A stretch of 32,658 nucleotides of DNA from Bifidobacteriaceae bacterium. GTDB lineage: Bacteria; Actinomycetota; Actinomycetes; Actinomycetales; WQXJ01. Under the pieces are notes generated by a model. The model made no database searches. It worked only from the letters and a program-made list of their open reading frames with translations, and was not told where the DNA came from. A program made the translations under genes and the position numbers. Location of the stretch: positions 1 to 32,658 of the forward strand of contig JAIROU010000314.1 of NCBI GenBank assembly GCA_031257375.1, written 5' to 3'. Positions 3,731-24,181 of the stretch are shown here, in pieces (the first letter of the stretch is position 1; every line of letters begins with the position of its first letter).

Positions 3731-3809
3731 TGTCCAGGTTCACCCGAGGTCGGGGTTCATGGATAACCCATCCCTTCCTGTTGCCTCGTTGTCAACCCTC
3801 CGCTCTCTC

Positions 3810-3838
3810 TTGACGCGCGGGGGCGTTATTGGTACTCT
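3810..3838 (+). promoter_or_regulatory. Sigma-70-like promoter for GH2 gene (TTGACG-N17-TACTCT)
   Basis: TTGACG at 3810-3815, 17-bp spacer, TACTCT at 3833-3838, about 57 bp upstream of the likely start codon. Confidence 0.55.
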
Positions 3839-3848
3839 CGCGTTGAGG

Positions 3849-3890
3849 CATTTAGGCCATCATTATGAAAAATATGGTTCCAAAGAGGGG
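3849..3890 (+). promoter_or_regulatory. Island 5' element, copy B (upstream of intact GH2)
   Basis: CATTTAGGCCATCATTATGAAAAATATGGTTCCAAAGAGGGG-ATCAATG; shared with copies A and C; the distal end acts as the Shine-Dalgarno. Confidence 0.7.
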
Positions 3891-3894
3891 ATCA

Positions 3895-6800: not shown

Positions 6801-7065
6801 GATCGGCCTGCCCCAAGGTCGCGTCTTGGTGGTCGTCAGCCGCCGCCCGTTGTGGGTGTCACTGCGCCCGTGGACGGACTTGGAGTTGAGCCGCGCCGCC
6901 CACCCGCACGAGCTACCCGCGACGGACCGGCTGGTGTTGCACCTTGACGCGGCCGAGCACGGCCTGGGCACGGGCTCGTGCGGGCAGTCCACCTGGCCGC
7001 CGCACCGGCTCCACCCGGTCGCCGTGGCCTGGGACTTGCGGTTGGCGGTGCTCCAACCCGGCTGA
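3895..7065 (+). CDS. GH2 beta-galactosidase (LacZ-like)
   Basis: GVNRHDF..., RTSHYPPQPALLDAADRLGFWVVEECDVETHGF, VVMWSLGNESGAG (acid/base), FVLCEYAHAMGAGPGGL (nucleophile), GGFVWQWQDQ; C-terminal beta-galactosidase small-chain domain. Start chosen at 3895 because AAAGAGGGG precedes it. Gly/Ala-rich linker near 5935-6015. Confidence 0.92.
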   Translation: MGGRQTNSRGQMAPRRCGARTTCGGGVATGQPGWLEAKASRGALAPRARFRADLPALSLNGAWEFRHSPSLAAAPGPGDPAREWRAVAVPGMWQLQGFGRPVYLNSRYPFPVDPPRVPDANGIGDYRLVFDADPVFLGGAVLAFDGIDSTGLVALNGEVLGWTKGSRLTHEFDVAGLLRERGNVLEVRVAQFNAGSYLEAQDQWRLSGIFRDVALLAAPPAFPRDIAVQADYDPRTGDCLVSVRVEGAVGRPAAVTAALDGRPVRVDGEAHGIGRLEPWTAERPVLHELLVSAGGHEAVIPVGFRRVEVAGGLFRVNGRPIRFKGVNRHDFDARRGRAQDAAAIERDLVLMKRAGINAIRTSHYPPQPALLDAADRLGFWVVEECDVETHGFEGLGWAGNPADDLSWEAAIVERVARMVGRDRNHPSVVMWSLGNESGAGRCLRAAYDWCRAQDPSRPVHYEGDRSYEYSDVVSHMYTPVAQLADIVRGVEPDRALDPFPNGAVVGPVDKPFVLCEYAHAMGAGPGGLADYEALFDAWPRLQGGFVWQWQDQNLVARAADGREYLAYGGDFGDEFSDAASGNGLTRAFRETPAGPAAWEDVAKPGLADYAAVIAAFRVEVAADGSGCVVTNRQDFADAAGCRLRWRRDGASGQLAGGVIPLGGDPGAGTGLEVALPAAARLGAEGAAGAGGASGGASRDRGGADRGEVLTVVVEAEYPWWDGFVPLGVGQAARGLDGADPEAPLVVGVALATGAAEAGLRPGAVRAGDRGPAGEVATGAASAGGSAPWEAAFAGGLLETLGGVPLTGPRLGLWRAPTDNDLGVLIQAADSALFERAGLSRLMRTTLSQDLGGGGLATTVRESPMGADFGVELVCRWAGVPGGARLRADAAPYGPWPADAVWARVGLDFELPGCGVDAPVRWRGLGPGPAGPDSGGAALWGWHRSTVANWQVNYSRPQDGGVRGGVTELAIGLPQGRVLVVVSRRPLWVSLRPWTDLELSRAAHPHELPATDRLVLHLDAAEHGLGTGSCGQSTWPPHRLHPVAVAWDLRLAVLQPG

Positions 7066-7100
7066 CGCGGACGGCGGCCCGCGGCCGCGCCTGGCTTGGC

Positions 7101-7120
7101 GCGGGGCGGCGCCGCCCCGC
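7101..7120. repeat. Perfect 20-bp palindrome between GH2 and GH95-like genes
   Basis: GCGGGGCGGCGCCGCCCCGC. Confidence 0.8.
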
Positions 7121-7171
7121 GGCGGACAACAACCAAGAAGGAAGAAGCAAGCAAGAAAGGTAAGGACAACA

Positions 7172-10100
7172 ATGAGGCAACTGAAACGGACAGGGAAGCT
7201 CGCGGCGCTGTGCTGCGCGGCGGCGCTGGGCGCCGCGGGCGCGCTGGTGTCGGCGGGGGGCGGGGCGCCACTGGCGGCGCACGCCGAGGAGCCGGACGGC
7301 GAGTGGGAGCAGGTGTCGGCGATCCTGGACGCCTACCCGGGGGTGTACACCAGTACGACTAGGATTGCGACAGCCTGGGACACAGATATGGCTCCGGATG
7401 GCCCGCAGTTGGGTAACGGCACGGTGTTGGCGTTTATGGCGGAGCATGACGACGCCCAGAATCTGCACATCTCGCGGACGGATCTTTGGGATGGCGCGCG
7501 CTATAGGACTTTCGGGGGTCTGAGGTTCAAGGCGACGAACACGGCCTCGCCGGCCACCGAGTTCCGCTACGAGCAGGACGAGAAGAACGCCGAGATCTCG
7601 GCGTGGAACACGCGCGGGTTCAAGACGGTGTCTTACCTGTCGGCGGCGGAGAACTTGATTGTGACGGAGATCGAGAATCTGCGTGATGAGGCGATCGGGA
7701 TGGAGGTGTCGGCGTACACGGCGAACGCCAACACCGCCTCTTCGGTGGACGGCGAGGTGTTGGTGGCGACGAAGGCGGCGGTGACCGATACCTATAACGC
7801 GGGCGCCACCTCGTGGGCCGGGTGGACCGTGAACGCGGCCTTGGCCGCCAAGGTGGTCAGCGGCGCGGACAATGTGATCGTGTCTTCGTCGGGTTCGTGG
7901 GCGACGGCGAGTTTCTCTATCGAGCCCAGTGGGAAGGCTGTCTTGGTCGCGGCGGTGGAGGGCGGCAAACAGGACGGCACCGCGAACACGATGGACGCGG
8001 CGACCGCGGCCGCCAAGGCGAGGGTCGCGGCCAGGAGCAATTCCGAGGCGTTGGCCCAGGCCAAACAGGCGCACCGGGACTGGTGGAAGGATTGGTGGCT
8101 GGCCTCGTTCATCGACATCGAGGACCCGTTGGTGGAGCGGTTCTATTACGGGGAGCTGTACAGCCTGGGGTGCATGACGAACGCTTCGAGCGAGAACTCG
8201 GCCGGCCTGGCGGTGGGCTTGTTCCCGTGGACGGCCAACAACGCGCCGGGCTGGCAGGGCGACTACACGTTGAACGGCGACGTGCAACGGCAGTTGCACC
8301 CGTTGACCTCGGCCAACCGGACGCAGGGCCTTGAGAGCTGGTTGAACGTGGTCAAGGATTTTTGGCCGCAGGCGCAGGCGCTCGCGGCGGACGCCGCGTC
8401 TTTGAACAACCTCGCGGGGAACGGCGGGCGGCCGCACTTCACCCAGGGGATCGCGGACGCCGCGATGTTCCCGGTGCACATCGGCCCGTGGGGCGCGACG
8501 ACCGAGACCTGGGCGGACAGGTACTGGGGCCAGCCGGCCATGGCGAGTTTCGCGTTGATGCCGCTGATCCGGTGGGCCCAGGGGACGTGGGATCCCGACC
8601 TGCTGGCGGAGTTGTATCCGATGGTGCGGGATGTGGCGGTGTTCTGGGAGAACTGGGTTGTCCTGCAGAACGGCAAGTACGTGGTCTACGGCGCCACCTA
8701 TGAAAACCACCGGGGGAAAAACACGGTGCTAGACGTGGACGCGGCCGAGTACATCTTGGAGAACGCGATCACGGCCGCCGGCCTGCTCGGGCTCGACGAG
8801 GAGAAGATCCCGGTCTGGCAGAACATTTTGGACAACATGAGCCCTACGCCGACGTTCTTGTACAACGGGAAGGAGGTCGTCGCGGAGATGGACGGCCTGT
8901 CCCAGTCGGCCACGGGAAACACGTTCTTGCCGGACAACCCGGTGCCGCTGCAGTCGGCGTATTTCTTCGACGCGGTCGGGATGGGCGAGCCGGAAGAGGT
9001 CAAGGCCAAGTACGTCAACTGGCTCGACCTGAGACTTGCCCAGGTCAACCACTACCGGGGGTTGAACGCGGCCGTGCGGGTCGGTTACGACATCGACAAG
9101 GTGTTCACGGCGTTGAAGAACAACATTTTGACCGTGACTCCGAGCAACTGGTACGGGTTGCGGGGGAACAACACGGCCGGGGACGTGGCGTTGGCGGCGA
9201 ACGTGTCCGTGGTCAACGACGCGTTGTTGCAGGGCAACGAGGGGTATTTGAACATCTTCGCCAACTGGTATAACGACCAGGCGGCGAGTTTCACCCGGTT
9301 GCGGGCGAACGGCGGGTTCGTGGTGTCCGCGGCGCAGAACTCCAGGGGAAAGGTGACGTCGGCGTCGGTGCTGTCCGAGCAGGGCGTGGACGCGGCCGTG
9401 CTGAACCCGTGGGAGGGTTACACGCTGGCCGTCCAGGACTCGGCCGGCGATCCGGTGGAGGTGGAGAAGCTGTACACCAACTCGATCGGGACGGTGTACG
9501 GGTTCGCCACTGAGGCCGGCGAGACGTACCAGCTGGTCCGCGGCGAGCTGACGGAGCCGACGTTCGCCCTGGCGGAGGCGTCGCTTTCCCTGGCGCGCGG
9601 CTCGGTGGGCGAGCTGACCGTGGCGACGAACCTGGACTACGAGGACGACGGCATCGTCTGGTCCTCGGACAACACCGGGGTGGCGTTGGTCGGCCGGGGC
9701 GGATCGGTCACGGCGGTGGGCGCCGGGGTGGCCACCATCACCGCGACCCATGTGGGTTCCGGCCTGTCCGCGTCCTGCGTTGTCGAGGTCAATAGCCTGC
9801 CCGAAACTCTCGACGTGGCTCGCTACAAGACAGCCTGGGCGTCCAGCGAGCACGAGAGCTTCGTGGCGAGCAGGGCTGTGCAGGGTGTTTGGGACATCGG
9901 CTACGAAGGTTGGGTCTCGACCCATGCCGACTTCGCGGCTGTCCCCCAAAGGTGGATCGCGGTCGACCTGGGCCGGGATTACACGATCATACGATGGGTG
10001 ACGGGGCTGCATGGGCTCGCAGCAGGCAAAACCACCGATTGGAACTACAAGGACGCCGAGAACGTGGGCACCTATCGCCTGCAGGTCAGCCCGAACGGCG

Positions 10101-10867
10101 AGGACGGCTGGCAGGACGTGGCCGTGAAGGAGAACCCGAAGGGGAACGCCGTCAGCGGCTTCAGCATCGACCTGGACGAGCCCGTGAGGGGACGGTACTT
10201 CCGGATCCTGGTGGACTACACCAACCATCTGCCCGATCCGAACGGGTGGGCCGGCGGGTACGCGCGGGTGGGCCAGTTCGAGTTGTACGCGGCGTCGGCC
10301 GTTCTCGAGTTTAACGTCGCTTCGGTGGATCCGGTGGCGGGTGTCGAGGTCGCGGCCGGCACGCCGTTCGCAGACCTGGGGTTGCCGTCGCATGTGAGCG
10401 TGGTCCTGTCGACCGGGAACCGGGCGAATGTGCCGGTCGAGTGGGACGAGGACTCTTACGACGGGTCTGCGGCCGGCTCCTCCACGGTGACGGGCGCGTT
10501 GACGGTGGCCGGTTTGCTGGCCAACCCGGATGAGCTGACTGCCTCGGTCGAGGTCGAGGTGGTTGGCAGCGCCGTCGAGCCGTTGTCGTTGTCGCCGACG
10601 GCGGTGGCGCGGTGCGCGGCGGGCAAGGCGCAGGTGTCGGTGGTGGTCAAGAACACCGACACTGTGGCGGCGGCGGTGTCCTTCACGACTGATTTTGGGT
10701 CGGCGTCGTTCGCGTCGGTGGCGAACGGGAAGTCGGCGTCGAAGGCGTTCGTGATCCGGGCCACCTCGGTGGAGGCCGGGACCGTCACGGTGACCGGCGA
10801 AACCCCCGACGGCGCCAAGGCGGCATCGCACGAAGTCGCCTACACGGGCATCGACTGCGCGCCGTGA
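7172..10867 (+). CDS. Secreted multidomain (alpha/alpha)6-type glycoside hydrolase, GH95-like, with Big2, F5/8-type C (CBM32-like) and further Ig-like domains
   Basis: Start ATG 7172 with AAAGGTAAGGA upstream; signal peptide MRQLKRTGKLAALCCAAALGAAGALVSAGG...AHA. WWKDWWLASFIDIEDPLVERFYYGELYSLGCM..., GDYTLNGDVQRQLHPLTSANR resemble GH95-like catalytic domains; IVWSSDNTGVALVGRGGSVTAVGAGVATITATHVGSGLSASCVVEV (Big2); ARYKTAWASSEHESFVASRAVQG...WIAVDLGRDYTIIRWV (F5/8C). Confidence 0.72.
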   Translation: MRQLKRTGKLAALCCAAALGAAGALVSAGGGAPLAAHAEEPDGEWEQVSAILDAYPGVYTSTTRIATAWDTDMAPDGPQLGNGTVLAFMAEHDDAQNLHISRTDLWDGARYRTFGGLRFKATNTASPATEFRYEQDEKNAEISAWNTRGFKTVSYLSAAENLIVTEIENLRDEAIGMEVSAYTANANTASSVDGEVLVATKAAVTDTYNAGATSWAGWTVNAALAAKVVSGADNVIVSSSGSWATASFSIEPSGKAVLVAAVEGGKQDGTANTMDAATAAAKARVAARSNSEALAQAKQAHRDWWKDWWLASFIDIEDPLVERFYYGELYSLGCMTNASSENSAGLAVGLFPWTANNAPGWQGDYTLNGDVQRQLHPLTSANRTQGLESWLNVVKDFWPQAQALAADAASLNNLAGNGGRPHFTQGIADAAMFPVHIGPWGATTETWADRYWGQPAMASFALMPLIRWAQGTWDPDLLAELYPMVRDVAVFWENWVVLQNGKYVVYGATYENHRGKNTVLDVDAAEYILENAITAAGLLGLDEEKIPVWQNILDNMSPTPTFLYNGKEVVAEMDGLSQSATGNTFLPDNPVPLQSAYFFDAVGMGEPEEVKAKYVNWLDLRLAQVNHYRGLNAAVRVGYDIDKVFTALKNNILTVTPSNWYGLRGNNTAGDVALAANVSVVNDALLQGNEGYLNIFANWYNDQAASFTRLRANGGFVVSAAQNSRGKVTSASVLSEQGVDAAVLNPWEGYTLAVQDSAGDPVEVEKLYTNSIGTVYGFATEAGETYQLVRGELTEPTFALAEASLSLARGSVGELTVATNLDYEDDGIVWSSDNTGVALVGRGGSVTAVGAGVATITATHVGSGLSASCVVEVNSLPETLDVARYKTAWASSEHESFVASRAVQGVWDIGYEGWVSTHADFAAVPQRWIAVDLGRDYTIIRWVTGLHGLAAGKTTDWNYKDAENVGTYRLQVSPNGEDGWQDVAVKENPKGNAVSGFSIDLDEPVRGRYFRILVDYTNHLPDPNGWAGGYARVGQFELYAASAVLEFNVASVDPVAGVEVAAGTPFADLGLPSHVSVVLSTGNRANVPVEWDEDSYDGSAAGSSTVTGALTVAGLLANPDELTASVEVEVVGSAVEPLSLSPTAVARCAAGKAQVSVVVKNTDTVAAAVSFTTDFGSASFASVANGKSASKAFVIRATSVEAGTVTVTGETPDGAKAASHEVAYTGIDCAP

Positions 10868-11014: not shown

Positions 11015-11692
11015 ATGAGGAAGAGTGTCGGAAGGTTCGCGGCTGCGGCTGTGGGCGCTTTCTTGATGGTCGGCGGCGCGGGGGCGGCGTTCGCTGAGGA
11101 TCAAGTCGGTGACGACGCCGAGAAGCCGGTGCGGGTGGTGATCTCGCCGCAGGCCGAGCCGCCGTGCGAGTCGGGGACCTTGTCTCTGTCAGTGGACACG
11201 GCGCTGGTGGATTTGCTGGAGGAGCAGGCGGACGAGCCGACTGATCCGCGCTACAACGCCGCGCTGCCTTCGGATGAGCGCTGGTTCATCGAGAAGATCG
11301 AGGAGGTTGTGGTCGAGGACACCCGTTGCGCGGAGCAGATCGGCGAGGGTGTGTTCTGGTCGGTGCAGGGCGTCGCGACGGACTTCGCGGGCTCGGGGAC
11401 GGCGCTGGGTGAGACGATCTCGCCGCAGAAGCTGGGTTGGGAGCCTGCCGTGCTGGACGACACGACCGGCTTGGTGGTCGATGGCGGCGCGATCGACTCG
11501 CACAACGACGGGCCTGGCCTGGAGGGCCTGCTCGGCCGGGAGATCATGTACCAGGTGAACTCGTCCTCGGACGACGAGGATTTGCTGGAGCAGGATGTGT
11601 GGACGGCTGAGGCGCTGCTGCGGCTGAAGGTGGACGATACGGTGGTGCCGGGGACGTACCTGGCGACGCTGAAGATCGGCCTGTTCGAGTAG
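11015..11692 (+). CDS. Secreted protein, WxL-domain-like
   Basis: AAAGGGAG RBS; signal peptide MRKSVGRFAAAAVGAFLMVGGAGAAFA; SGTLSLSV..., FWSVQGVATDFAG, C-terminal VPGTYLATLKIGLFE resembles the end of WxL domains; adjacent to a DUF916-like gene. Confidence 0.5.
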   Translation: MRKSVGRFAAAAVGAFLMVGGAGAAFAEDQVGDDAEKPVRVVISPQAEPPCESGTLSLSVDTALVDLLEEQADEPTDPRYNAALPSDERWFIEKIEEVVVEDTRCAEQIGEGVFWSVQGVATDFAGSGTALGETISPQKLGWEPAVLDDTTGLVVDGGAIDSHNDGPGLEGLLGREIMYQVNSSSDDEDLLEQDVWTAEALLRLKVDDTVVPGTYLATLKIGLFE

Positions 11693-11719: not shown

Positions 11720-13042
11720 GTGATGCAGGGGGGCTGGGCTCGCGCCGCCGCCGCGACAGCGGCGGCGGCGTTGGCCTGCGCCCTGGCGCCCGCGCCCGCG
11801 GTGGCCGCGCCGGACTCGGCCGCCGGAGCGGCGGCCGGTCGGGGGCCTGTGGCCGTGGATTTGGCGGCGGCGGATGGTGAGACCCCGGACCCCTCGGCAT
11901 CGTCGGGCGGCGCGGGCGGCGCCGACGGGTCGGGCCGGGTGCGTTGGTCGGTGGCCCCGGCCGGGCCGGACGGGCGGCCGGACGGTCGGCGTTGGTTCGA
12001 GTTGGCGCTGGAGCCGGGGGAGCGGGCGGAGGAGTCGCTGGCGGTGACGAACCTGTCGGACCGGCCGGTGGTGTTTGGCTTGGAGGCCGCCGACGGGTTC
12101 TTCAACGAGGGCGGCCGTTTCGGGATGGCGTTCGACGCCGAGAGTTCGGTCGGCGCCGGCCGGTGGGTCGGCGTGCGGGGGGAGGTGGAGGTCGGCGCGG
12201 GCGAGACGGTGGCGGTGCCGTTCTGGGTGGATGTCCCGGCCAACGCCGAGCCCGGCGACTGGGCGGCTGGGATCGCGGCGGTGTTGGAGGCCGGGGCCGG
12301 CGGCGGCGAGACCGGGGTGGGGATCGCGTCGCGGGTCGGGGTCAGGGTGTTGGTGCGGGTGTCGGGCGAACTGGCGCCGTCGCTGCGGGTCAGCGGGCTG
12401 GAGGCGTCCTACGTTGGAGTCTGGGACCTGCGCCGGCCGGGGTCGGTGGCGGCCGGGTTTGACCTGGTCAACACCGGCAACACGCGCTTGACTGTGACGG
12501 GGCGGGTGTCCGCCGGGGGCGGCGCCGCGGCCCTGTTCCCGGCCGAGGGGGAGCCGGCCTTGGAGTTGTGGCCGGGCGCGTCGCGCCGCGTCGAGGTGGC
12601 GCTGGACGGGGTCTGGCCCAAGTTCCGGGTGCCGGTGGTGGTGGAGGCGGACCCGGTGGCGGTGTTGACGGCATCGGGCGGCACGGCCCCCGAGGTGGCG
12701 CCGGTGGCGGCCGAGGCGACGGTCTGGGCGGTGCCGTGGCCGCACTTGGCGCTGGCGGGCGGCCTGGCGTTGCTGGTCGGGGCGCTGGTGGCGCGCCGGG
12801 CCCGCTCCAGGCGGCGGACCCAGGCGCTGGTGGCGCGAGCCCGCGCCGAGGGCGCGGCCGCCGCCCTGGCCGGCGCGCAGGCCGGCGCGCAGGCTGGTGG
12901 CGGACCCGCCGGAGGTCTCCGCCGGGCCGGGGCGGCGCCTGGCGTTTCCGCCGCCGCCGACCCGTTGGCGCAGGCGTTCGCGCCGACGGCGCGCAAGCGC
13001 AAGCAGGACAGAGCGGCGCGACCAAAACGCGGAGAGGCCTGA
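11720..13042 (+). CDS. Membrane-anchored DUF916/WxL-interacting-like protein
   Basis: WFELALEPGERAEESLAVTNLSDRPVVFGLEAADGFF..., WVDVPANAEPGDWAAGIAAVL, FDLVNTGNTRLTVTGRV; C-terminal TM (HLALAGGLALLVGALVARRARSRRR) and basic tail. Confidence 0.62.
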   Translation: MMQGGWARAAAATAAAALACALAPAPAVAAPDSAAGAAAGRGPVAVDLAAADGETPDPSASSGGAGGADGSGRVRWSVAPAGPDGRPDGRRWFELALEPGERAEESLAVTNLSDRPVVFGLEAADGFFNEGGRFGMAFDAESSVGAGRWVGVRGEVEVGAGETVAVPFWVDVPANAEPGDWAAGIAAVLEAGAGGGETGVGIASRVGVRVLVRVSGELAPSLRVSGLEASYVGVWDLRRPGSVAAGFDLVNTGNTRLTVTGRVSAGGGAAALFPAEGEPALELWPGASRRVEVALDGVWPKFRVPVVVEADPVAVLTASGGTAPEVAPVAAEATVWAVPWPHLALAGGLALLVGALVARRARSRRRTQALVARARAEGAAAALAGAQAGAQAGGGPAGGLRRAGAAPGVSAAADPLAQAFAPTARKRKQDRAARPKRGEA

Positions 13043-13447: not shown

Positions 13448-14704
13448 TTATGTGCGAGGACCCCGCGGGGCGCTTGATGTCTGAGGATCAGGGCTGCGAC
13501 CCCCCGCCAGGCGGGCGAAGCTGCTGTCCAGGACGGTGCAGGCGGCCCCAAAGGCCGCCACATCGACCCCGACCGTGGCGTCGCGGAGCTTCGGGTAGTC
13601 ACCAGGCGTCATACGGTACTCGGAGGTGTGCAGCTGTTCGGCCACCAGCGGCAGAAAGATGTCGCGAACCTCGTCCCACGACGGCCCGGCGAAGACGATC
13701 TCATCCAAATCGAGCACGTTGGTCAGCGTCACCATAGCGTCGCCGAGCAGGCGCCCCGCCCGCTCGAGCACCGTTTTCGCGGCCGGGGCGCCTGCGCGAC
13801 AGGCGCCGACCAGCGCCGCGAAACGGGTCACCGTGTCGCGGCCGGGTACGCTGAACCCCTCGGATTCCGCCTGTTTCAGCAGATAGCGGGGCGTCACCAG
13901 ATGCCCGAGGCTTTCAGAACGGCGCACGGGCGGCGCGCCGGCGCTCGGCACAATGATCGTGCCGCCGAAGCCTGCGTTGCCGGAGCGCCCCAGGAACGGC
14001 TCGCCGCCCAGCACCAGCCCGGTTCCGATGCCGGCGCCATAGATCACGAGAGCGAAATTGCGGGCCGGCTCGGCGCTGACCCAAACCTCGCCCGCGGCAG
14101 CGGCGTTGACGTCCATGTTCATGGTCACGGGAAGGCCGGTGGCGGCCGCCAGCGGTTCGCGCAGCGGCTCGTCCCCCCAGGTTGGGAGCAACGAAGGGAA
14201 ATGCAGGGAGCCGCGCTCGAGATCGACCGGACCAGGCGTCGCGAGCCCCACCCCCAGAATCAACGACGGGTCCACACCGGACGCCGCGATCACATCGCCG
14301 ATGGCGGTCGCCAGGTTGGCCACCAACCGTTCCGGCCGTTCCGCGCCGATGGTCGGGGCGGAACGGTGGGCCTTGACCTCTCCCGCCAGGTTGAGCACAA
14401 AGAAAGCGGAACTGGTCGGATCGAAGTAGGCGCCCACCGCGAACCGCGCGTCCGAGCGCAGCCGCAGCATCATGCGCGGCCTGCCGCGCCCGCGCGTCAC
14501 CAAGTCGGCTTCGGCGATGAGCCCCGCTTTGATCAGGTACCCCACGGCGTTGGAGACCGTCTGGTGGGCCAACCCGGTCCGGTGCGCCAACTCCGTCCGG
14601 CTGATGCCCTGGGGCGACATGCGGACCAGGCTCAGGATCACGCTCAGATTGAATTCCCCGACCGCGGGAAGGTTGATCCCGCGAAGGTCATCTGCGAGGC
14701 TCAC
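13448..14704 (-). CDS. ROK-family transcriptional regulator
   Basis: N-terminal winged HTH (ISRTELAHRTGLAHQTVSNAVGYLIKAGLIAE), then ROK domain (ILGVGLATPGPVDLERGSLHF..., NMDVNAAAAGEVW, IYGAGIGTGLVLGGEPFLGRSGNAGFGG). GTGA overlap with the upstream GH78 gene. Confidence 0.88.
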   Translation of the reverse strand: MSLADDLRGINLPAVGEFNLSVILSLVRMSPQGISRTELAHRTGLAHQTVSNAVGYLIKAGLIAEADLVTRGRGRPRMMLRLRSDARFAVGAYFDPTSSAFFVLNLAGEVKAHRSAPTIGAERPERLVANLATAIGDVIAASGVDPSLILGVGLATPGPVDLERGSLHFPSLLPTWGDEPLREPLAAATGLPVTMNMDVNAAAAGEVWVSAEPARNFALVIYGAGIGTGLVLGGEPFLGRSGNAGFGGTIIVPSAGAPPVRRSESLGHLVTPRYLLKQAESEGFSVPGRDTVTRFAALVGACRAGAPAAKTVLERAGRLLGDAMVTLTNVLDLDEIVFAGPSWDEVRDIFLPLVAEQLHTSEYRMTPGDYPKLRDATVGVDVAAFGAACTVLDSSFARLAGGRSPDPQTSSAPRGPRT

Positions 14705-17484
14705 GGCTCAATTATCCAGGGCGCAGCGGCGGCAGGCGGCGCCGGATCTCGCCGACGCGGGCCGTTCCACACCTTGGCCTCGCGCCCGAGCGGTGTCTTG
14801 ATGCTGTGGGTCCCCGGGGCCAGAGCCTCGGCGCTGGCGCTGGGCAACGCCAGGACCGCCTCGGTTCCAGGGGGGATGCTGGCCCGCACCCTCCACTCGG
14901 CGGCGGTGCGTTCCCAGGCGAACTCGATCAGACCGTGCCCGGTGACATGGGTGGTCTTGGCGCGGGTCACCCTTGCGTCATCCGGCGGGCTAAGGCACGC
15001 TTGACGCCAGCCGGGGGCGGTCCCCCGCAGGCCGCCCACAGCTTGCCGGATCCAACTCGACACGGAACCGAGGAAAAAGTGACTGCGGCTGCGGGCGTCC
15101 GCGTCGAAAGATTCCCACAGCGTTCCGTCGCCGGTCTTGGCCCAAGGAGCCCAGGACGGACGGGTCTGTTGCGTGGCGATGGTCAGGGCCAGGTCGAACC
15201 GGCCGCTCTCGCTCAAAGCCGGGAGCAGGTACTTGACACCGATGGAGCCGCAGTTGAGATGGCCTTGGGTGCGCTGTTCGACATCGGTCGCCAGCCCCGA
15301 GGCAACTCTTGCCCGCTCCTTTAGGGGAACCGTGCCGAACACCAGCGGTAGAGCGTTCATCACCTGCCGGTAGGGCGCGCCGGCGATGCGATAGGTTCCA
15401 CTCGCGTCGTCGAAGTAGCGTTTGTGGTAGGCGCCCATGACAGCCTGCCGGGCGCTGCGATAGCCCGCGGCAACCCCGTCTAGGCCCACGGCAGCGCACA
15501 TTTGGGCCAACCGGTCTGCCAGCAGCGTCAGCATCATGGTCGCAACGGGCGTGGGGCCTTCGAGCGCCCCACCGGGGGGAAGCCAATCCCCGTGGCTCAG
15601 GCGCGCCCATAGCCAACCAGTTTCACTGGCCAGCTCAAGGACGTGGTCGAGGTAGCGGCGCATCGGGTCCAGGTAGCGGCCGATGATGCCGGTGTCGCCG
15701 TGCTCAAAATAGAGGGCGTAAGGGATCAGGACCATCGAACCGCTCCAGGCCGGGTCCAACCAGCGGCCCCAGCCGGGAGTTGGCACGATCACGGGAACGG
15801 CGCCCACGGCGTCCTGGGCGTCCACGTAGTCGTCCAGCCATTTCGTTAACAGCGGCCGCAAATCGAGGCTGAGCAAGGCCGCCTCGGCCACCAGGTGCAC
15901 GTCCGTCCAACCGTTCTTCTCATACGTCGGGGTGTCGACAGGTAGGCCGTGGACGCAGTTCAACACCGTGGCGCAGGTCGCCGTATCGATCCACTGAAGA
16001 AGCGGTTGGTCACACTCGAAAGAACCTGCCCGCGCGATCTCAGCGACGTACGGGACTGCCCTGACCCCACTCACCGCCACATTTCCGGTGAGGGTCAACT
16101 CGGCGTGGCGAAAGCCCTTGTACGTGAACTCAGGGCGCCACGTCAGGTCTACCGGGCCGCGGACAACAACCTGGTCCACCTGAGCTTCCCCGCTGGCGTA
16201 GGCATTGTCGCAGACCGCGTGCCCTTCGGCATCGGCGGTCTCGCCGTACTTCACACGGACTTCGCCCGGACCGGCCCCGGTCACGCGGAACTCGACCACA
16301 CCTGTCAGCACCCGGCCAAAGTCGAAGACTGTGCTGTCGCCAACGAGCCGCGCTTTGACGGGCGGCACCGGTTCGCGGGGGATGTCCGGCGGCGCCGAGG
16401 CCAGGCAGAGGCGCCCCTGAGGGCCGGCCACTTCCAGGGCAGGTTCCCAAGATCCCTCAGGCCCGCCCACTTCCTGGACGACGCCGGTATACAGCATCTC
16501 GCTCGTGATGTCGCTCGCTCTTGTGAGCCACGAACCATCCGTCCCGATCACCGCTCCGCCTCGCTGGCCGCCAACCTCCAGGTGCGCCCAGACCATCGGT
16601 TCGGCCGTCCAAGGTGCCAAACTCCAACCCCAGACGTCAGACCCATGCGCGCCCCAGAATCCGCGCCCGGTTCGAGCGATTATCTCGTTTGAGCCCGCTC
16701 GAAGTAACTCGGCGACGTCGAAGACGGACACATCGACTCGCTTGTCGTATTGGGTTGGGGCTGGTTCAAGCGCTCCATCGCCGACCCGGTGGCCGTTTAT
16801 CCACCAGGTTGCGTACCCCAGCCCAGTGGCGTGAAGCCGCGCCGCCGCCGGCGCCTCGTCCAGATCGAACACCTTTGAGAACTCCGGGTTCGGCGCCGGG
16901 CGCACCTGTGCGCCTAGAGCCAGCACGCCGGTTTGCGCTTGGCCGTCGCGCAGGTACGGGCGGACAAGCGACAGCGGCGCGATTTCCGGATCGCAGGGCT
17001 CGGCTACCAAACCCCGACTCCAGCCGACTTCCTGGCGAGCGGTCAATTCGACGGCGAATCTGCCCGCGGCGAGCGGCGCGGGCAAGGCGAGGAGCACCGA
17101 GAAGCGCTGGAAGAAAGCATCGTCATCGACTGCCAACTCCGTCAAGACGCTGCCAGCGTGATCCAACAGGCGCACCCGGCACAGCGGCCGACCCGGCGCC
17201 GTCACCCGCGAGTCGGCGTTCAGGCCGCTGATGGCGTCCAGCCCGGCGCGCTGGAAAGGATCGCGCTCCGGTTTGAAGCGCAGGTCAATGTTGACCCCCG
17301 TGAGCTGGCCCTCGCAAACAAACGGCTGCGCCAAGGTTGTGCCAGCCGGCGCCCATGCCACCGCTCCGGAAGGCAACGCCACAAGCGGGCGGAACCGAGG
17401 CTGGACGGGACGGCTGATCCAGCGGGCAGACCCGGCCCGGGGGAGAGCTTGCAATTCTTGCGAGAAGTGATGGCTTGTCGTCAT
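14701..17484 (-). CDS. GH78 alpha-L-rhamnosidase
   Basis: LHATGLGYATWWINGHRVGDGALEPAPTQYDKRVDVSVFDV, VFDFGRVLTGVVEFRV, LNCVHGLPVDTPTYEKNGWTDVHLVAEAALLSLD, LNCGSIGVKYLLPALSESGRFDLAL. ATGA overlap with the upstream gene. Confidence 0.88.
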   Translation of the reverse strand: MTTSHHFSQELQALPRAGSARWISRPVQPRFRPLVALPSGAVAWAPAGTTLAQPFVCEGQLTGVNIDLRFKPERDPFQRAGLDAISGLNADSRVTAPGRPLCRVRLLDHAGSVLTELAVDDDAFFQRFSVLLALPAPLAAGRFAVELTARQEVGWSRGLVAEPCDPEIAPLSLVRPYLRDGQAQTGVLALGAQVRPAPNPEFSKVFDLDEAPAAARLHATGLGYATWWINGHRVGDGALEPAPTQYDKRVDVSVFDVAELLRAGSNEIIARTGRGFWGAHGSDVWGWSLAPWTAEPMVWAHLEVGGQRGGAVIGTDGSWLTRASDITSEMLYTGVVQEVGGPEGSWEPALEVAGPQGRLCLASAPPDIPREPVPPVKARLVGDSTVFDFGRVLTGVVEFRVTGAGPGEVRVKYGETADAEGHAVCDNAYASGEAQVDQVVVRGPVDLTWRPEFTYKGFRHAELTLTGNVAVSGVRAVPYVAEIARAGSFECDQPLLQWIDTATCATVLNCVHGLPVDTPTYEKNGWTDVHLVAEAALLSLDLRPLLTKWLDDYVDAQDAVGAVPVIVPTPGWGRWLDPAWSGSMVLIPYALYFEHGDTGIIGRYLDPMRRYLDHVLELASETGWLWARLSHGDWLPPGGALEGPTPVATMMLTLLADRLAQMCAAVGLDGVAAGYRSARQAVMGAYHKRYFDDASGTYRIAGAPYRQVMNALPLVFGTVPLKERARVASGLATDVEQRTQGHLNCGSIGVKYLLPALSESGRFDLALTIATQQTRPSWAPWAKTGDGTLWESFDADARSRSHFFLGSVSSWIRQAVGGLRGTAPGWRQACLSPPDDARVTRAKTTHVTGHGLIEFAWERTAAEWRVRASIPPGTEAVLALPSASAEALAPGTHSIKTPLGREAKVWNGPRRRDPAPPAAAAPWIIEP

Positions 17485-20114
17485 CGAACACTCCCTGATT
17501 TCAAGCGAGACTCAATTGTTCGGCCCGGAGCAAGGTCAAAGCCGACCGCTCGAATGTTTCGCAGTGTGCCCCATTTGGTCGACGCTTTGCCGACCTGTTC
17601 GCCGTCGAAGGTCGGATCAAGCTCAAACAGGCCGGCTAGCACCGCTTCCGCAGAGGCGATGGCACAGGCTGAATCGCGGTTGGATGAGCTGCGCTCGGCG
17701 GCGCGGAAATGCCCCTCGCGAATGGTTTCCTGGCCCTGGCCCCACAGCTGGCCCGAGCGCGCCCGGTGGATGCGGCCCAGGAAACTCGCGGCCCGATCAG
17801 CCTGTCCCAGCTTGCACAAACCCAACGCCGTGCGCGCCGGCCAGGCCCCGAACGCGCCGGCGGCGCCGTGGTCGGGCCGGTCTGCCAGCGGCGCTATCGG
17901 ATCGTTCGGATCCAACGCCCGCATCCAGTCGCCATCGAGCAGGCTGGTGGCAATGAACTCGACCATCTGCGCTGCAATGGCGGGCGGAAGGTCGCCTGAC
18001 AGGAATTCTGCGATCAGCGCGAAATCGAGGCAGTGACCTATGGTGTCAATGCCGGTCGGCGTGTAGATGGACCAACGGCCAGCGCCCGCATAACCGCCTA
18101 TCACGGCCTTGGCCAAGGTGTCGCCTTCGCTTCGCGCGAGAGCCCCCTCCACGTCATCGCCGCGCCTGGCCAACAATGACGAGAGCGCTCGCAGCATGTG
18201 CGCGTAGGCGGCGTTGAAGGCCATGACCACATGGCGGTAGTTCGGGACGCACTCCAACAGCTCCCACGAATCACCGCCGAAATCAGCTAACACGCCCCCG
18301 GCGTATGGCGCGCGGATAGAAGCCGGACGCCAGGCCATGTCGGCCAAGTGCTCCAGCACGGTCTTGCCCGAGGCGACCTCGTCGAGCAGCGCGTAATCGC
18401 CGGTGATGCCGACGTAGCGTTCAACCGAGCAGAAGAGCGCGTAGTCGTTGGCCGCATAGTGGTTCCCGATGGTGACCAAGTTGCGGGTGTCGAAAGAGTG
18501 AGAGTGCCGGTAATCGCCCGAGAGAGCGGCCAGGAGCCAGCGGCGGGTGGCGTCTGGCTCCAGCAGCGTCACGACACGCGAGAACTCGACCTGTTCCCAA
18601 TAGAAGGTGACGGTGGGCCCCAAGCGCGGTCCGCCTGTGAGAAAAACCGGCCCCAGCTCGCTCACACCGGTGTTGCGCATATAGACAGCCAACAAGCAAG
18701 CCAGATAGTAGGTCTGCTCCAGGCCCTCGTCCTGCGTCACCAAAGTCGGCAGGTAACCGGAATGATCCGGGTTCCCGGGAATGAAGGCGTTCGCCCACAG
18801 GCACTGCCAGCGGGTCCTGGTCGCCGCCAGCCGTTCGCCGAAACCGGCACTGGCTTGCCGCGCGCGCTTCAGCACGTCGCTGGCGGCTACCCCGATTTCG
18901 AGGGATATTCCAACCCTGAACGCCTCTCCCGGCGCGAGCGTTAGTTTCCAGCCTGCGCGGCCCCGCTGCCCCTCGGTGGTGAGCGAGTCTGGCTCAACCG
19001 TGGCAGTAAACGCCGAACAGGCGTCAGTCGCGGCGTCTTCAACCAGCACAGTCGTCCTGGAGACCACTCTTGCCGACCAGCGCTGCGACCCCCACCACGG
19101 TTGAGTTCCGCCGACGCGCTCCCCGTCGACAAGAACAGCGACCGCGTCAGGTTCCCGCAGGGCTCCGAGTTCGTACCATACGCCGGCCTCCAGGCGCCGT
19201 CCGGTGCGGATGCGCTCGCCGCCGACATCAACGACCAAAGCGCCGTCTTCGACCAGGAACTGGAGCGAGCCGGGATGGTTCCCGTGGGTCAGGATCGCGC
19301 CGTCCGCAAGGCCGTCCAGCCGCACCCGGACACTGATAGCCATGCCGACCTTCCAGCCGGACGCCCCTAGCTTGACCTTGCACTCGCCACCAGTCAACAC
19401 CCATGGCCCGACGATCCGTTCTTCGCCCTCGACCCAGGCGACTTCACCGTGCACGCTGTGCGGGCGCGGCCAGTCCCAATCGGGGGCGGTGTGGTCTGGC
19501 AGGGCCGATTCGATGAGCATCGGGGAATCATCCTCGTCGCGCTGGATGCCGGGGATGGGCGGATGTCCCAGACGCAGCACGCGCGACTCGTCCGGCGGTA
19601 GCTGTGCTTGTCGGGGTTCGGCGGACAACACGTCTTGGCGGATGCGCTCGGTGGCGAAAAAGTCATGGCCTTCGCCGTGGTTCCAAGGCGTGTTGTAGAG
19701 CCAACCCCAACCAGTCGCATGGCGGGCGATCGGGGCGAGCAGCTCAAACTCCAGGTCGCACGCGCGGGGAAGGCCACTCTCATTGCGCACTTCGACCTGC
19801 CACAGAGCCGCCGCCTGCTCAAAAGGCAGGCAAGTGTCCGTCTCAATCACCAATCCGCCGTTTGAAGACCGCCGCTGGACTCCCCACGGCCGCCAACGAA
19901 GCTCCTGCGCCGGCGGGGCCGCGCCGTCTATCCGAAGCACCCCTGTCCGGTAGCCGCCCGAGTACGGCGGGATGGCGAGCCAGGAGATAGAGGCCAGGTC
20001 AGCGTTCGCGTGAGCCTGCCCCCATTGGTTGCGCAGCGACGGCAGATGCGCCCAATCGGCGGCCGGCATCCATGCGCCGCTCAGTGCGTCAAGAGAAGGG
20101 ACGTGTTCAGGCAT
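17481..20114 (-). CDS. Putative (alpha/alpha)6-barrel glycoside hydrolase of uncertain family with an inserted LamG/concanavalin-like domain
   Basis: 877-aa ORF. N-terminal beta-rich region, an internal segment (VKLGASGWKVGMAISVRVRLDGLADGAILTHGNHPGSLQFLVEDGALVVDVGGERIRTGRRLEAGVWYELGAL) resembling LamG, then helical toroid-like region (LEQTYYLACLLAVYMRNTG..., GDSWELLECVPNYRHVVMAFNAAYAHML). Position inside the GH operon. Confidence 0.6.
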   Translation of the reverse strand: MPEHVPSLDALSGAWMPAADWAHLPSLRNQWGQAHANADLASISWLAIPPYSGGYRTGVLRIDGAAPPAQELRWRPWGVQRRSSNGGLVIETDTCLPFEQAAALWQVEVRNESGLPRACDLEFELLAPIARHATGWGWLYNTPWNHGEGHDFFATERIRQDVLSAEPRQAQLPPDESRVLRLGHPPIPGIQRDEDDSPMLIESALPDHTAPDWDWPRPHSVHGEVAWVEGEERIVGPWVLTGGECKVKLGASGWKVGMAISVRVRLDGLADGAILTHGNHPGSLQFLVEDGALVVDVGGERIRTGRRLEAGVWYELGALREPDAVAVLVDGERVGGTQPWWGSQRWSARVVSRTTVLVEDAATDACSAFTATVEPDSLTTEGQRGRAGWKLTLAPGEAFRVGISLEIGVAASDVLKRARQASAGFGERLAATRTRWQCLWANAFIPGNPDHSGYLPTLVTQDEGLEQTYYLACLLAVYMRNTGVSELGPVFLTGGPRLGPTVTFYWEQVEFSRVVTLLEPDATRRWLLAALSGDYRHSHSFDTRNLVTIGNHYAANDYALFCSVERYVGITGDYALLDEVASGKTVLEHLADMAWRPASIRAPYAGGVLADFGGDSWELLECVPNYRHVVMAFNAAYAHMLRALSSLLARRGDDVEGALARSEGDTLAKAVIGGYAGAGRWSIYTPTGIDTIGHCLDFALIAEFLSGDLPPAIAAQMVEFIATSLLDGDWMRALDPNDPIAPLADRPDHGAAGAFGAWPARTALGLCKLGQADRAASFLGRIHRARSGQLWGQGQETIREGHFRAAERSSSNRDSACAIASAEAVLAGLFELDPTFDGEQVGKASTKWGTLRNIRAVGFDLAPGRTIESRLKSGSVR

Positions 20115-20161
20115 GGCGATTGGATCTTTCAGTCAAAGAGACGGATGGGCGGCGATTCGCC

Positions 20162-21004
20162 CTATCCCTTGGCCGCTCCCGACGTCAGCCCGGCGACAAA
20201 CTCGCGTTGGCAGAACAGGTAGGCGATGAGCGGGATGAGCGCGGCAATCAGCGTGATGGCGTACACCTGCCCGTAATCCGTTGAGACAGCGCTGGCCCCC
20301 AATGACAAGTACATGGCCACTGTGATTGTTTGCCCCTGCGTCGGTCCCAGGATGATGAGCGGTCCCAGGAAATCGTTCCAAGTCCACAGGCCGACGAAGA
20401 TCGCCACCGTGATGGTGGCCGGGCGCATCAGCGGCATCACAATTGACCACCAAACCCGTAGATCCCCGGCGCCGTCGACGCGCGCGGAATCCAATATCTC
20501 TTTCGGAACCGTGTGGAGGAAACCCACATAGACGAACACCGCGAAAGCGAAATACCCCCCAGAGATGCCTACCAACACCAGGCCGGGGTAGGTGTTCATC
20601 AGACCCATGGCCTTCAGGACTTGCACCGTCGGTTGCAACCCCACCTGCGGCGGGATCATCAGTCCAAGTGCGAAGATCCCAGTCAAGATGCCTTTGACCC
20701 GAGCCGATCTCTCGAACAACCACAGGCTGGTGGCCGAGGAAAGCGGGATCAACAGCGCGACTGTCGCCGATGTGATCACGACCGAGTTGACCAGACCAGT
20801 CTGGATCAGGTGATCGGGCCGGGAGAGCGCAGTGATTACGTTGCTGAAGGTGAATGGGTTCGGCAACCCCAGAGGGTCGGACTTGATCTGCGCGTTGGCC
20901 TTGAACGCGTTCACAACGGCCAGATAGATCGGGAAACAAAACACGGCCGTGACAACCCAGCCGCCGGCCAGGCGTCCTGAGCGGGATGCGAGCTTTGCGT
21001 TCAC
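20162..21004 (-). CDS. ABC sugar transporter permease, MalG-like
   Basis: EAA-type motif KEILDSARVDGAGDLRVWWSIVMPLMRPA; multiple TM segments. GTGA overlap with the preceding permease gene. Confidence 0.9.
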   Translation of the reverse strand: MNAKLASRSGRLAGGWVVTAVFCFPIYLAVVNAFKANAQIKSDPLGLPNPFTFSNVITALSRPDHLIQTGLVNSVVITSATVALLIPLSSATSLWLFERSARVKGILTGIFALGLMIPPQVGLQPTVQVLKAMGLMNTYPGLVLVGISGGYFAFAVFVYVGFLHTVPKEILDSARVDGAGDLRVWWSIVMPLMRPATITVAIFVGLWTWNDFLGPLIILGPTQGQTITVAMYLSLGASAVSTDYGQVYAITLIAALIPLIAYLFCQREFVAGLTSGAAKG

Positions 21005-21894
21005 AGGTTGGTCTCCCTCTTGCGCAGGATGCGGGTGGCAATGGCGGACACCGCGGCCGTCAGGACCAGTAGCAGGATGCCCAGCGCGGCGCCATAACCT
21101 GTGTGGCCGTTGCCAAACGCCACGGCGATGACGTAATAGGCCAGCGAGTTGGTCGAATTGGCCGGTCCGCCTGACGTCAGCACCGCCAGGATGTCATAGA
21201 GTTTCAACGCGCCTATCAGCCCCAGCACCACGCAGGTGGTGGTGGCGGGAGCGAGCATGGGCCAGGTCACGTTGAAGAACCGCTTGATGGGGCCGGCCCC
21301 ATCCACCCGGGCGGCGTCCATGAGTTCGGGGGGCACAGACTGCAACCCGGCCATGTAGACGACAGTGCAGAAAGCCGTCGAAGCCCAGGCGACTGTGACG
21401 CAGACGCAGAATGTCGCCATCTCCCGCGTGCCCAGCCAGTTGATCGGCGCGTCCAGCCAGCCGTATTTCAAAGCGCTGGAGTTGATAAGGCCGTTCTGGT
21501 TGAACATCATGCGCCACATGAAGGCGACCACCACACCGGAGAGCACCTGGGGGATGAAGGCCAAGGTCCGCATCACTTTGTAGTTCTTGGCCTGGTTGTT
21601 GAGCATCATGGCGAACAGCACGCCCCCGACGTTCGAAACCAGCGTCACCAGAATCGTCACGATCAGCGTGAACGCGAAGGTCCGCCCGAGCCGCGGGTCG
21701 GAGAACATCCTGGTGTAGTTCTCCAGGCCGACGAAACTCATCGTCTGCCGGTTGGTCCTCGCATCGGTCAAGCTCAGCGTGGCGGAAGCGAACACCGGAT
21801 AGATGACCCACAGGGTGTACAGACCCAGGCTGATGAAGGCGATGGGCGCCAGCCCACCGAGCGCCTTGCGTCGTTTTCTTGGACGGCTAGCCAT
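21001..21894 (-). CDS. ABC sugar transporter permease, MalF-like
   Basis: PPELMDAARVDGAGPIKRFFNVTWPMLAPATTTCVVL; start chosen at MASRPRKRRKALGG (21894) rather than the longer ORF. Confidence 0.88.
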   Translation of the reverse strand: MASRPRKRRKALGGLAPIAFISLGLYTLWVIYPVFASATLSLTDARTNRQTMSFVGLENYTRMFSDPRLGRTFAFTLIVTILVTLVSNVGGVLFAMMLNNQAKNYKVMRTLAFIPQVLSGVVVAFMWRMMFNQNGLINSSALKYGWLDAPINWLGTREMATFCVCVTVAWASTAFCTVVYMAGLQSVPPELMDAARVDGAGPIKRFFNVTWPMLAPATTTCVVLGLIGALKLYDILAVLTSGGPANSTNSLAYYVIAVAFGNGHTGYGAALGILLLVLTAAVSAIATRILRKRETNL

Positions 21895-21995
21895 CCCGGA
21901 CGTCGGCGGCGGGCTAGCCGCGCGGAGCAGCCGCGCCCGGCCGAGGATGCCGTCCCCATTCAGATGGAACTGCCGTGTTGGCCTACCGCTGGGAA

Positions 21996-22025
21996 GCGAT
22001 GGGGCCGGCCTTGCGGCCCCATCGC
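21996..22025. promoter_or_regulatory. Perfect 12-bp stem inverted repeat between SBP and permease genes
   Basis: GCGATGGGGCCG-GCCTTG-CGGCCCCATCGC; lies between the SBP stop (22047) and the MalF-like start (21894). Confidence 0.8.
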
Positions 22026-22046
22026 TCTCCCCCGTCAAACTACGCA

Positions 22047-23342
22047 CTATTGCGCCGCAGCCCACTGCGCATCGAGGTCTGCGCACAGGGCGGCCGCGTC
22101 CGAGTTGGTGAAGACGGCCTGAGCCATTCCCATGAAGCCATCAGCCACAGTGGAGGGAATCGCGTTCTTGCCGCCGGTCCACCTGAAGGATGGAACTGAC
22201 GTGGCGGCGTCGCCCGTCGCCAACTCATAGCCCTCCATATACAGCGGGGTGACGTCGACGCCAAGATCCGCCAACGATGCGTTCTTCAACAAAATGAAGG
22301 CCGCGTCGTTCTCGATCAGCGGCTTGTACGATTCCTGGTTCGTCGCCCAAGCTTTGGCCCACTCCATCGCGACCTCGGCATTCGGCGACTCCTTGTTGAC
22401 TGCGAACGTGCCACCGGCCACCGTCGGCAGGTAGGCGGTCCCGTTGTCGCTGGGCCAAAGGAAAACGCCGATGTTCTCGGCTTGCTCGTCAGTCAGGTAG
22501 CCCTTGCCGATGAACCAGGAACCCATCGGGTACATGCCGGACTTTCCGTCGAGGAAGTTCTGGTTCGCCGCCGAATAGTCGGCCGAGAGCGCCGCCGGGT
22601 CATAGGCGCCGGCCTCGACCAGATCGATCATCTTCTGGACGGCGCCGACGAAGTCGGCGTCAGAGAATTTGGCTTCGCCCGCCTTGAGCTTCTGGATCCA
22701 CTCGGGGTCCTTCCCCAACACGTCCGTGGTGACGGCGCCGACCATTCCTATGTCAGCAGCCCAGCCTTCCCCGCCGGCCATCTCAATCGGGGTGACTCCC
22801 GCAGCGCGCAGCTTGGCGACAACGTCGAGGAATTCGGACCAGGTCTTTGGCACGGAGATGCCGTTGTCGGCGAAGATCGTCTTGTTGTAGAACACCAGCG
22901 GCACGATTTGCGTACCCGTGGACGGCGTGTAGACGTTGCCGTCGCTGTACACGCCAGATTCCCAGAAGAGGAAATTCTCCTCCAGCCAGGCCTCGTCATA
23001 GGGCATGAGCGTGTCGTGAAGATCGTCGACATTGACCTGGCCCAGCACGTCCGGCAGTTGGCCAGAAGCGCGCAACTGCCCCGGATACTCGTCCCCAATG
23101 GAGACGATCTTCTTGACCGTGACGCCGGGGACCTTAGCCGAAGCGGCCGCGATCGAGGCGTCCCAGAACTCGGCGGTGTTGGCCTCGGACTCCGTCACCA
23201 ATACCGTGATTTCGACTGGCTCGCTGGAGCGGGACTCGTCCTGCGACCCGGGCACGTTTGAGTCTGAATCGTTGGAGCATCCCGCAGCGAGCAGAAAAGC
23301 CACCGCGAGACCAGCTACCAGAACATTTGTAGGTCGTTTCAT
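22047..23342 (-). CDS. ABC sugar transporter substrate-binding lipoprotein
   Basis: Lipobox LLAAGCS after a signal sequence; WSEFLDVVAKLRAAGVTPIEMAGGEGW, AVNKESPNAEVAMEWAKAWATN; RBS AGGAGGAAGAAAAGG. Confidence 0.92.
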   Translation of the reverse strand: MKRPTNVLVAGLAVAFLLAAGCSNDSDSNVPGSQDESRSSEPVEITVLVTESEANTAEFWDASIAAASAKVPGVTVKKIVSIGDEYPGQLRASGQLPDVLGQVNVDDLHDTLMPYDEAWLEENFLFWESGVYSDGNVYTPSTGTQIVPLVFYNKTIFADNGISVPKTWSEFLDVVAKLRAAGVTPIEMAGGEGWAADIGMVGAVTTDVLGKDPEWIQKLKAGEAKFSDADFVGAVQKMIDLVEAGAYDPAALSADYSAANQNFLDGKSGMYPMGSWFIGKGYLTDEQAENIGVFLWPSDNGTAYLPTVAGGTFAVNKESPNAEVAMEWAKAWATNQESYKPLIENDAAFILLKNASLADLGVDVTPLYMEGYELATGDAATSVPSFRWTGGKNAIPSTVADGFMGMAQAVFTNSDAAALCADLDAQWAAAQ

Positions 23343-23356
23343 TCCTTTTCTTCCTC

Positions 23357-23446
23357 CTAGATTACTGTAGTCGAGCGCCTAGCCGCCGCACTGCCACTTC
23401 TTCGCGATCGCGCTCTCAGACGGGAATCGGGGTACCCACTCCTCAC
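23357..23446 (-). CDS. Possible 29-codon leader ORF (MRSGYPDSRLRARSRRSGSAAARRSTTVI)
   Basis: GTG preceded by AAGGAGGGACCC; in-frame TAG overlaps the SBP Shine-Dalgarno (atcTAGGAGGAAG). Same position relative to the shared 5' element as the GH2 start codon. Confidence 0.4.
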   Translation of the reverse strand: MRSGYPDSRLRARSRRSGSAAARRSTTVI

Positions 23447-23449
23447 GGG

Positions 23450-23494
23450 TCCCTCCTTGGAACCGCCTTATTCACAACGATAGCATAAATATCG
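23450..23494 (-). promoter_or_regulatory. Island 5' element, copy C (upstream of ABC/GH operon)
   Basis: Reverse complement CGATATTTATGCTATCGTTGTGAATAAGGCGGTTCCAAGGAGGG; shared with copies A and B. Confidence 0.68.
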
Positions 23495-23514
23495 TAGGCC
23501 CGTCGGCCGTGGTC

Positions 23515-23767
23515 GGCGGCAACCTGCGTTTCGCAGGCCGCGGTCGAGTTCACGCTCGCCGCTGGCGCCAAATTCGCGAACGTGGCCGGTCAACCTGGCC
23601 AAACTGTCGAGGTGACCACCTCCGAGGCCTGCTTGGCCCGCGTCGAGGTGGTTGATCTGGTCCGGGGTGGCGAGACTGTCACGGTCACCGCCGTCGTGGC
23701 GGGCCAGGAGGTCGGCTCGGCCGAGTTGGAGTTTGGCCCCGACGCGCCCGGGTGCCGTTTAGCCTAA
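23515..23767 (+). pseudogene. C-terminal domain remnant of a secreted GH-associated protein
   Basis: Frame reads VSQAAVEFTLAAGAKFANVAGQPGQTVEVTTSEACLARVEVVDLVRGGETVTVTAVVAGQEVGSAELEFGPDAPGCRLA*, similar in length and pattern to the C-terminus of the GH95-like protein (AAAVSFTTDFGSASFASVANGKSASKAF...EAGTVTVTGETPDGAKAASHEVAYTGIDCAP*). Confidence 0.45.
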
Positions 23768-23960
23768 GAGCGTCTGTTTCTAACGCGCTAAACCCTGTGC
23801 CGAGCGAGGACGTGCCGGGCGTGGTGCACCGCAAGTCCCCACCGTCGGTGGGGGCCCAGGAGGACCTGCCCTTGGGTGGAGCCCAAGGGCTGCGTCCGTG
23901 GGCGCGGCGGGGCGCCGCGACCGGTGCGCCGCAGCCGGTGCGGGGTTTAGAAACAGGCTC
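23768..23960. mobile_element. MITE-like element with imperfect terminal inverted repeats
   Basis: GAGCgtCTGTTTCTAA...TTAGAAACAGGCTC termini; flanked on both sides by TAA (23765-23767 and 23961-23963); internal hairpins CCCCACCGTCGGTGGGG and CCTTGGGTGGAGCCCAAGG. Confidence 0.5.
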
Positions 23961-24181
23961 TAAATCCACCGAAATGGCCTCGGCCGGCGGCTGATGGCTG
24001 TCGCTGGCGCGCGGAGGGCGCACGGGGGCCGTCCGGGGGCCGCCCGGGGCGGCCCGGGGGCGCCCGGGGCCGGGCGATGGGCGCGTGGCGGGCGGCGTGG
24101 GCGTGTCCCGGGCGCGCCAAGACCGTCCCCGGGTGCTCGCTGTTCGGTTGTCCCCCCCCGGCCAGAGGCCGGTCAGGGGCC

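Follow-up and report, generated by a model that had tools for sequence, protein, structure and literature searches.

Organization of the P0001 operon

The window, which is the entire 32,658-nucleotide stretch analysed, contains on its minus strand an operon that runs 5' to 3' from an extracellular sugar-binding lipoprotein (SBP) through two permeases and an 877-residue protein (P0001) to a GH78-type protein and a ROK repressor. The features are as follows:

22047..23342, minus strand: ABC importer extracellular sugar-binding lipoprotein (SBP); PF01547 (SBP_bac_1), orthologues 46–51%
21001..22086, minus strand: ABC sugar permease 1; PF00528, orthologues 53–54%, start GTG 22086 or ATG 21894
20162..21004, minus strand: ABC sugar permease 2; PF00528, orthologues 57–63%
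17481..20114, minus strand: P0001, GH94-like family protein, 877 aa; open frame, orthologues 50–53% identical, AF2 model
19035..19367, minus strand: LamG-like insert of P0001, residues about 250–360; family alignment, PF13385 below cut-off at 19.4 bits
17628..18884, minus strand: (alpha/alpha)6 catalytic-type domain of P0001, residues 411–829; AF2 secondary structure, Foldseek and hhalign to GH94
18231..18290, minus strand: candidate catalytic loop of P0001, residues 609–628 (LADFGGDSWELLECVPNYRH); D611 and E621 invariant in 66/66 sequences
14701..17484, minus strand: GH78 alpha-L-rhamnosidase-like protein; PF17389 (232 bits), PF08531, PF05592, PF17390
13448..14704, minus strand: ROK-family repressor (winged helix and ROK); PF00480 (87 bits), orthologues 44–48% beside the same module

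The P0001 reading frame is intact over 877 codons from an ATG start, and we consider it a real gene because it displays a GC3-type coding bias and has full-length homologues in other genomes, at about 50–53% identity. This bears out the 877-residue product of the first-pass annotation, which had left the strand unspecified. Pfam likewise confirms the ABC genes (SBP_bac_1 and two BPD_transp_1 matches) and the GH78 domains, and the SBP gene has a good ribosome site, AGGAGG. As that annotation had also reported, the stop of P0001 and the start of GH78 share a four-base ATGA overlap (17481–17484); together with a GTGA overlap between the GH78 stop and the ROK start (14701–14704), this arrangement would couple the three genes. 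A plus-strand reading frame at 13628–15004 was rejected as a gene, the coding bias there favouring the minus-strand ROK repressor. The operon was probably acquired horizontally, since its GC content (62–68% at positions 14000–24000, against 72–73% downstream) is lower and the P0001 gene is missing from the 17 further genomes searched within its family-level group. The source assembly comprises 491 contigs and is about 89% complete.

By inspection, the N-terminus of P0001 (MPEHVPSLDALSGAWMPAADW) has no hydrophobic stretch, in agreement with the earlier statement that a signal peptide is lacking, and the protein, encoded next to sugar importer genes, is probably cytoplasmic. Searches with P0001 yielded nothing reaching E 0.01 in Pfam or E 0.1 in NCBIfam and only noise in the PDB (single-sequence query), so that the absence of a known family, as first noted, holds for these curated resources. 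No paper naming the family was found in open-access text.

Elsewhere in the window, the plus strand carries a glycosidase array (1515–10867) with a GH120-insert beta-helix protein, a LacZ-type GH2 and a large GH95-like protein bearing F5/8, Big_2 and Big_4 domains. A small secreted protein (11015–11692) precedes a protein at 11723–13042 with a sub-threshold match to a WxL-interacting-protein peptidoglycan-binding domain (23.8 versus 27.3 bits).

P0001 is a divergent member of an actinobacterial family

A scan of genome contigs with the single P0001 sequence returned no match, and relatives were reached solely through a family alignment. Homologues of about 700 residues, found among 198 related genomes, are about 30–34% identical to P0001 and match its residues 20–136 and about 360–840, not the region between. 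The alignment-based scan of GTDB contigs identified 129 confirmed relatives, of which 80 were kept, from Microbacterium, Agromyces, Glycomyces, Kribbella, Jiangella, Ruania and other genera. Members of the family are encoded by at least 80 actinobacterial genomes, and relatives of P0001 are widespread among soil actinobacteria. Wider searches revealed two full-length, insert-bearing close relatives that are 53% (genome G239) and 51% (genome G838) identical to P0001. In the 66-sequence tree, these three full-length members group together with full support, set apart by a long branch. P0001 is no orphan but part of a divergent clade within the family of ~700-residue proteins. In another genome (G807), a fragment 51% identical to P0001 residues 419–612 (locus L138, 9771–10436) stands without an intact partner and appears to be a decayed copy; the same genome retains an intact ~700-residue homologue (L142).

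The insert is located within the N-terminal beta-supersandwich of P0001 and is present in both close relatives, but absent from the ~700-residue proteins. The LamG/concanavalin-like insertion proposed for the N-terminal half is thus real as an insertion; its laminin-G-like nature is weakly supported, the isolated P0001 insert scoring 19.4 bits with PF13385 (cut-off 27.6). Relatives match PF02210 weakly, and a series of beta strands is predicted for residues 257–357, in a low-confidence region of the P0001 model.

The fold and profile of P0001 are nearest to GH94

The AF2 model of P0001, generated from 53 aligned sequences, has a mean pLDDT of 67.6; most of the helical domain exceeds 80, and most of the insert falls short of 70. 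A Microbacterium family member was modelled with a pLDDT of 88.7 and a pTM of 0.91. When the Microbacterium model was used for Foldseek, GH94 enzymes (cellobiose and chitobiose phosphorylases) ranked first (E 1e-20, TMq 0.64–0.68), with a TM-score of 0.66 to cellobiose phosphorylase, and GH94 was also first for the P0001 model (E 5e-13). The family shares the GH94 architecture, namely a beta-supersandwich followed by an (alpha/alpha)6 domain.

Profile comparisons with hhalign, run in local mode against comparison profiles built alike, gave 98.2% (E 3e-14, 524 columns) for the family versus GH94 and 96.1% (E 3e-9) for the P0001 clade alone; as a control comparison of GH116 with GH94 reached 97%, we interpret these values as superfamily kinship nearest to GH94, not as membership. 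The GH94 Pfam profile PF17167 (cut-off 27 bits) found no match in P0001 at E ≤ 0.01, and the best clade member scored 16.8 bits. The (alpha/alpha)6 glycosidase architecture predicted from the sequence is therefore supported by the model and by both kinds of comparison; the list of families that had been excluded at that stage, however, did not contain GH94, the nearest one.

Membership of GH78, GH65 and GH116 was rejected. For GH78, P0001 has no match to Pfam Bac_rhamnosid6H, and hhalign gave 7.5% for the family and 0.9% for the clade; the corresponding values were 8.1% and 4.2% for GH65, and 11.2% and 1.2% for GH116, where a Pfam match to DUF608 is also absent. The MGH1-like profile PF22422 (cut-off 27 bits) is reached by two ~700-residue relatives (27.8 and 28.3 bits) and has no match in P0001; by hhalign, MGH1 aligns with the C-terminal half of the family only (94%), and with the P0001 clade at 0.1%.

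Clan GH-Q signatures are absent while other residues are invariant

GH94 and GH149 enzymes have a common active site, whose hallmarks are the catalytic Asp within a WND loop, an RD motif and a conserved histidine (PMC6771811). Catalytic, phosphate-binding and subsite -1 residues are conserved throughout clan GH-Q, the member families of which are glycoside phosphorylases (PMC12102758). We compared 19 GH94 proteins from related genomes with 66 family proteins. DWND of the catalytic loop, RD..QD of the sugar-phosphate site and the phosphate His motif [FY][SC]H are each present in 19/19 GH94 proteins and 0/66 family proteins, and the same holds for all three together. Because these signatures are absent, P0001 is not filed as GH94; from the alignment, the phosphate site and clan signatures appear to have been lost in the family. 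In place of the RD arginine, all 66 family members carry a Trp, such that the aligned pair is W-D, or W-E in P0001. The surrounding segment aligns without gaps, reading W[DE]-12-P-3-R in 55 of the 66 and RD-12-P-3-R in 14 of the 19 GH94 proteins.

The column of the GH94 catalytic Asp is variable within the family, with Glu in 41, Gly in 19 and Asp in 5 of the 66 sequences, and Lys also occurring. Such variability may possibly reflect another mechanism or a non-catalytic role, in which case the glycosidase fold of P0001 would have decayed and the protein would serve in sugar binding or regulation. We regard such decay as highly improbable, because D611, E621, D697, D738, D748, H694, H749 and W506 are invariant across 66 long-diverged sequences, and these acids, the Trp and the two His indicate a maintained active site. 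One of them, E621, lies within the motif GDSWELLECVPN, in which the first-pass annotation had placed its candidate acids.

Gene context argues for hydrolysis of an imported sugar

We inspected 86 family loci, which are related by descent, so that the counts do not represent independent events. Permeases are located nearby in 83/86 and an SBP in 82/86. A ManA-like gene is found in 42 loci (39 of these with a ROK kinase) and a glucarate-dehydratase-like gene in 38 (35 with an SDR); the two never occur together (0/86), yet one or the other is present in 80/86. Loci L021–L112 illustrate these two alternative catabolic modules, one with a ROK kinase and a ManA-like 605-residue protein, the other with an SDR and a glucarate-dehydratase-like protein. 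The 605-residue protein (e.g. L063, 5043–6860) has no Pfam match, and its residues 249–473 resemble mannose-6-phosphate isomerase. Since both gene sets act on free sugars, they argue for hydrolysis by the family, although they belong to the loci of the ~700-residue relatives and none is present in the P0001 operon. In Microbacterium sp. CBA3102, a GH94-profile-positive protein of about 1040 residues (L055, 15007–18123) is encoded within a few kb of the family gene.

These data bear on the possibility that P0001 belongs to a new clan GH-Q-like family of phosphorylases in which different residues bind the phosphate. Both the fold and the profile kinship are to phosphorylases, such enzymes are typically cytoplasmic and accompanied by an importer (PMC6484121), and a phosphate site could have re-evolved around the invariant H694 and H749. 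However, the three clan signatures are absent in 66/66 sequences, the loci of the family encode a free-sugar ROK kinase or SDR, and no phosphomutase was recognised among the identified neighbour genes. We thus judge phosphorolysis to be unlikely.

Secreted DUF4185-type (GH183-like) proteins are encoded in 66/86 loci (L063, 12219–13388; L025, 15802–16956; and 64 similar). Two of these score 41 and 48 bits against a family cut-off of 39.5, and the partners possibly constitute a distinct GH183-related group. In a Microbacterium locus that also encodes an ABC importer, DUF4185 enzymes act as endo-D-arabinanases (PMC10509167). On this reading, the secreted enzyme would cut actinobacterial or mycobacterial wall glycans outside the cell, and P0001 would be an exo-D-arabinofuranosidase, or a similar enzyme, that processes the resulting fragments inside it. 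The partners barely pass the cut-off, however, and the published locus employs GH172 and GH116 exo-enzymes. Moreover, this role fits the ~700-residue relatives rather than P0001, and no DUF4185 was detected in the source genome (89% complete), where a search control also gave no signal. For P0001, an arabinofuranosidase activity therefore seems quite improbable.

Within the P0001 clade, the module ROK-SBP-permease-permease-enzyme is kept in three genomes at 44–63% identity, with ABC importer and ROK repressor as the conserved partners. GH78 is absent from both full-length orthologous loci, which keep importer and repressor, and elsewhere occurs in 1 of 103 neighbourhoods, where it lies on the opposite strand at a distance of about 7 kb. 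It is thus a local addition to the window operon, which renders the link to rhamnose weak, and the suggestion that the ATGA overlap implies a coupled function does not extend to a general rule. In G838, an AXE1 acetyl esterase adjoins the conserved module. The ATGA overlap and a common operon with the importer would fit a joint role in which P0001, as a hydrolase, and GH78 together process a rhamnosyl glycoside taken up by the importer, for instance a flavonoid disaccharide from plants; with GH78 missing from the two orthologous loci and from all but one other locus, we consider such a partnership fairly unlikely.

Proposed function of P0001

We favour, as reasonably probable, a model in which P0001 acts in the cytoplasm as a glycosidase from an unclassified family that shares a common ancestor with GH94, has lost the phosphate site and hydrolyses an imported oligosaccharide or glycoside. 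Building on the established gene, operon, fold, GH94 kinship, clan-signature loss and conserved module, we infer the following steps for hydrolysis, stereochemistry, acid roles and substrate. The ABC importer would take up a small oligosaccharide or glycoside, with the ROK repressor controlling the operon. P0001 would then hydrolyse the imported sugar, probably in an exo-acting and inverting manner. The proton donor may be D611 or E621, both invariant acids of the catalytic loop, and the base may be an invariant acid close to the segment that formerly held the phosphate His, with D748 as the best candidate; these assignments derive from sequence alignment. A GH65 enzyme lacking the phosphate site is indeed a hydrolase that uses a Glu base instead (PMC8626586). 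GH78 would have joined the operon in the source genome alone, and hence the local substrate may also bear an alpha-L-rhamnosyl unit.

More tentatively, with the chances slightly below even, we propose that these proteins constitute a new GH family of hydrolases with kinship to clan GH-Q, which would comprise the lectin-bearing P0001 subfamily and a widespread actinobacterial subfamily; as part of the same tentative proposal, the latter would feed one of two alternative catabolic routes. If true, clan GH-Q would gain the kind of hydrolytic counterpart that exists for GH65 and GH130, and a function would be provided for a gene of at least 80 actinobacterial genomes that is nameless in Pfam and NCBIfam.

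Comparison with known systems

The GH94 phosphorylases of clan GH-Q (acting on cellobiose, chitobiose and cellobionic acid) resemble the family in their beta-supersandwich, (alpha/alpha)6 domain and C-terminal strands, as well as in profile homology over 524 columns and the conserved [RW]D-12-P-3-R segment. By contrast, the family has 11–14% identity to GH94 and is devoid of WND, RD and phosphate His (66/66), its associated genes point to a free sugar, and the P0001 clade carries the LamG-like insert. MGH1-like/GH63 hydrolases (PF22422) align with the C-terminal half of the family (hhalign 94%), but not with the P0001 clade (0.1%). The GH116 exo-beta-D-arabinofuranosidase ExoMA2 (PMC10509167) is, like P0001, intracellular with a beta-sandwich and an (alpha/alpha)6 domain, and its gene shares an actinobacterial ABC locus with a DUF4185 gene; its structural match to the family model (Foldseek TMq 0.55) is weaker than that of GH94, with no profile similarity (11%) and no DUF608 match. 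Although it belongs to a different family and GH65 has no profile similarity (8%), the hydrolase FjGH65A (PMC8626586) provides the functional precedent, namely a phosphorylase fold in which the phosphate site has been lost and the glycosidic bond is cleaved by inverting hydrolysis.
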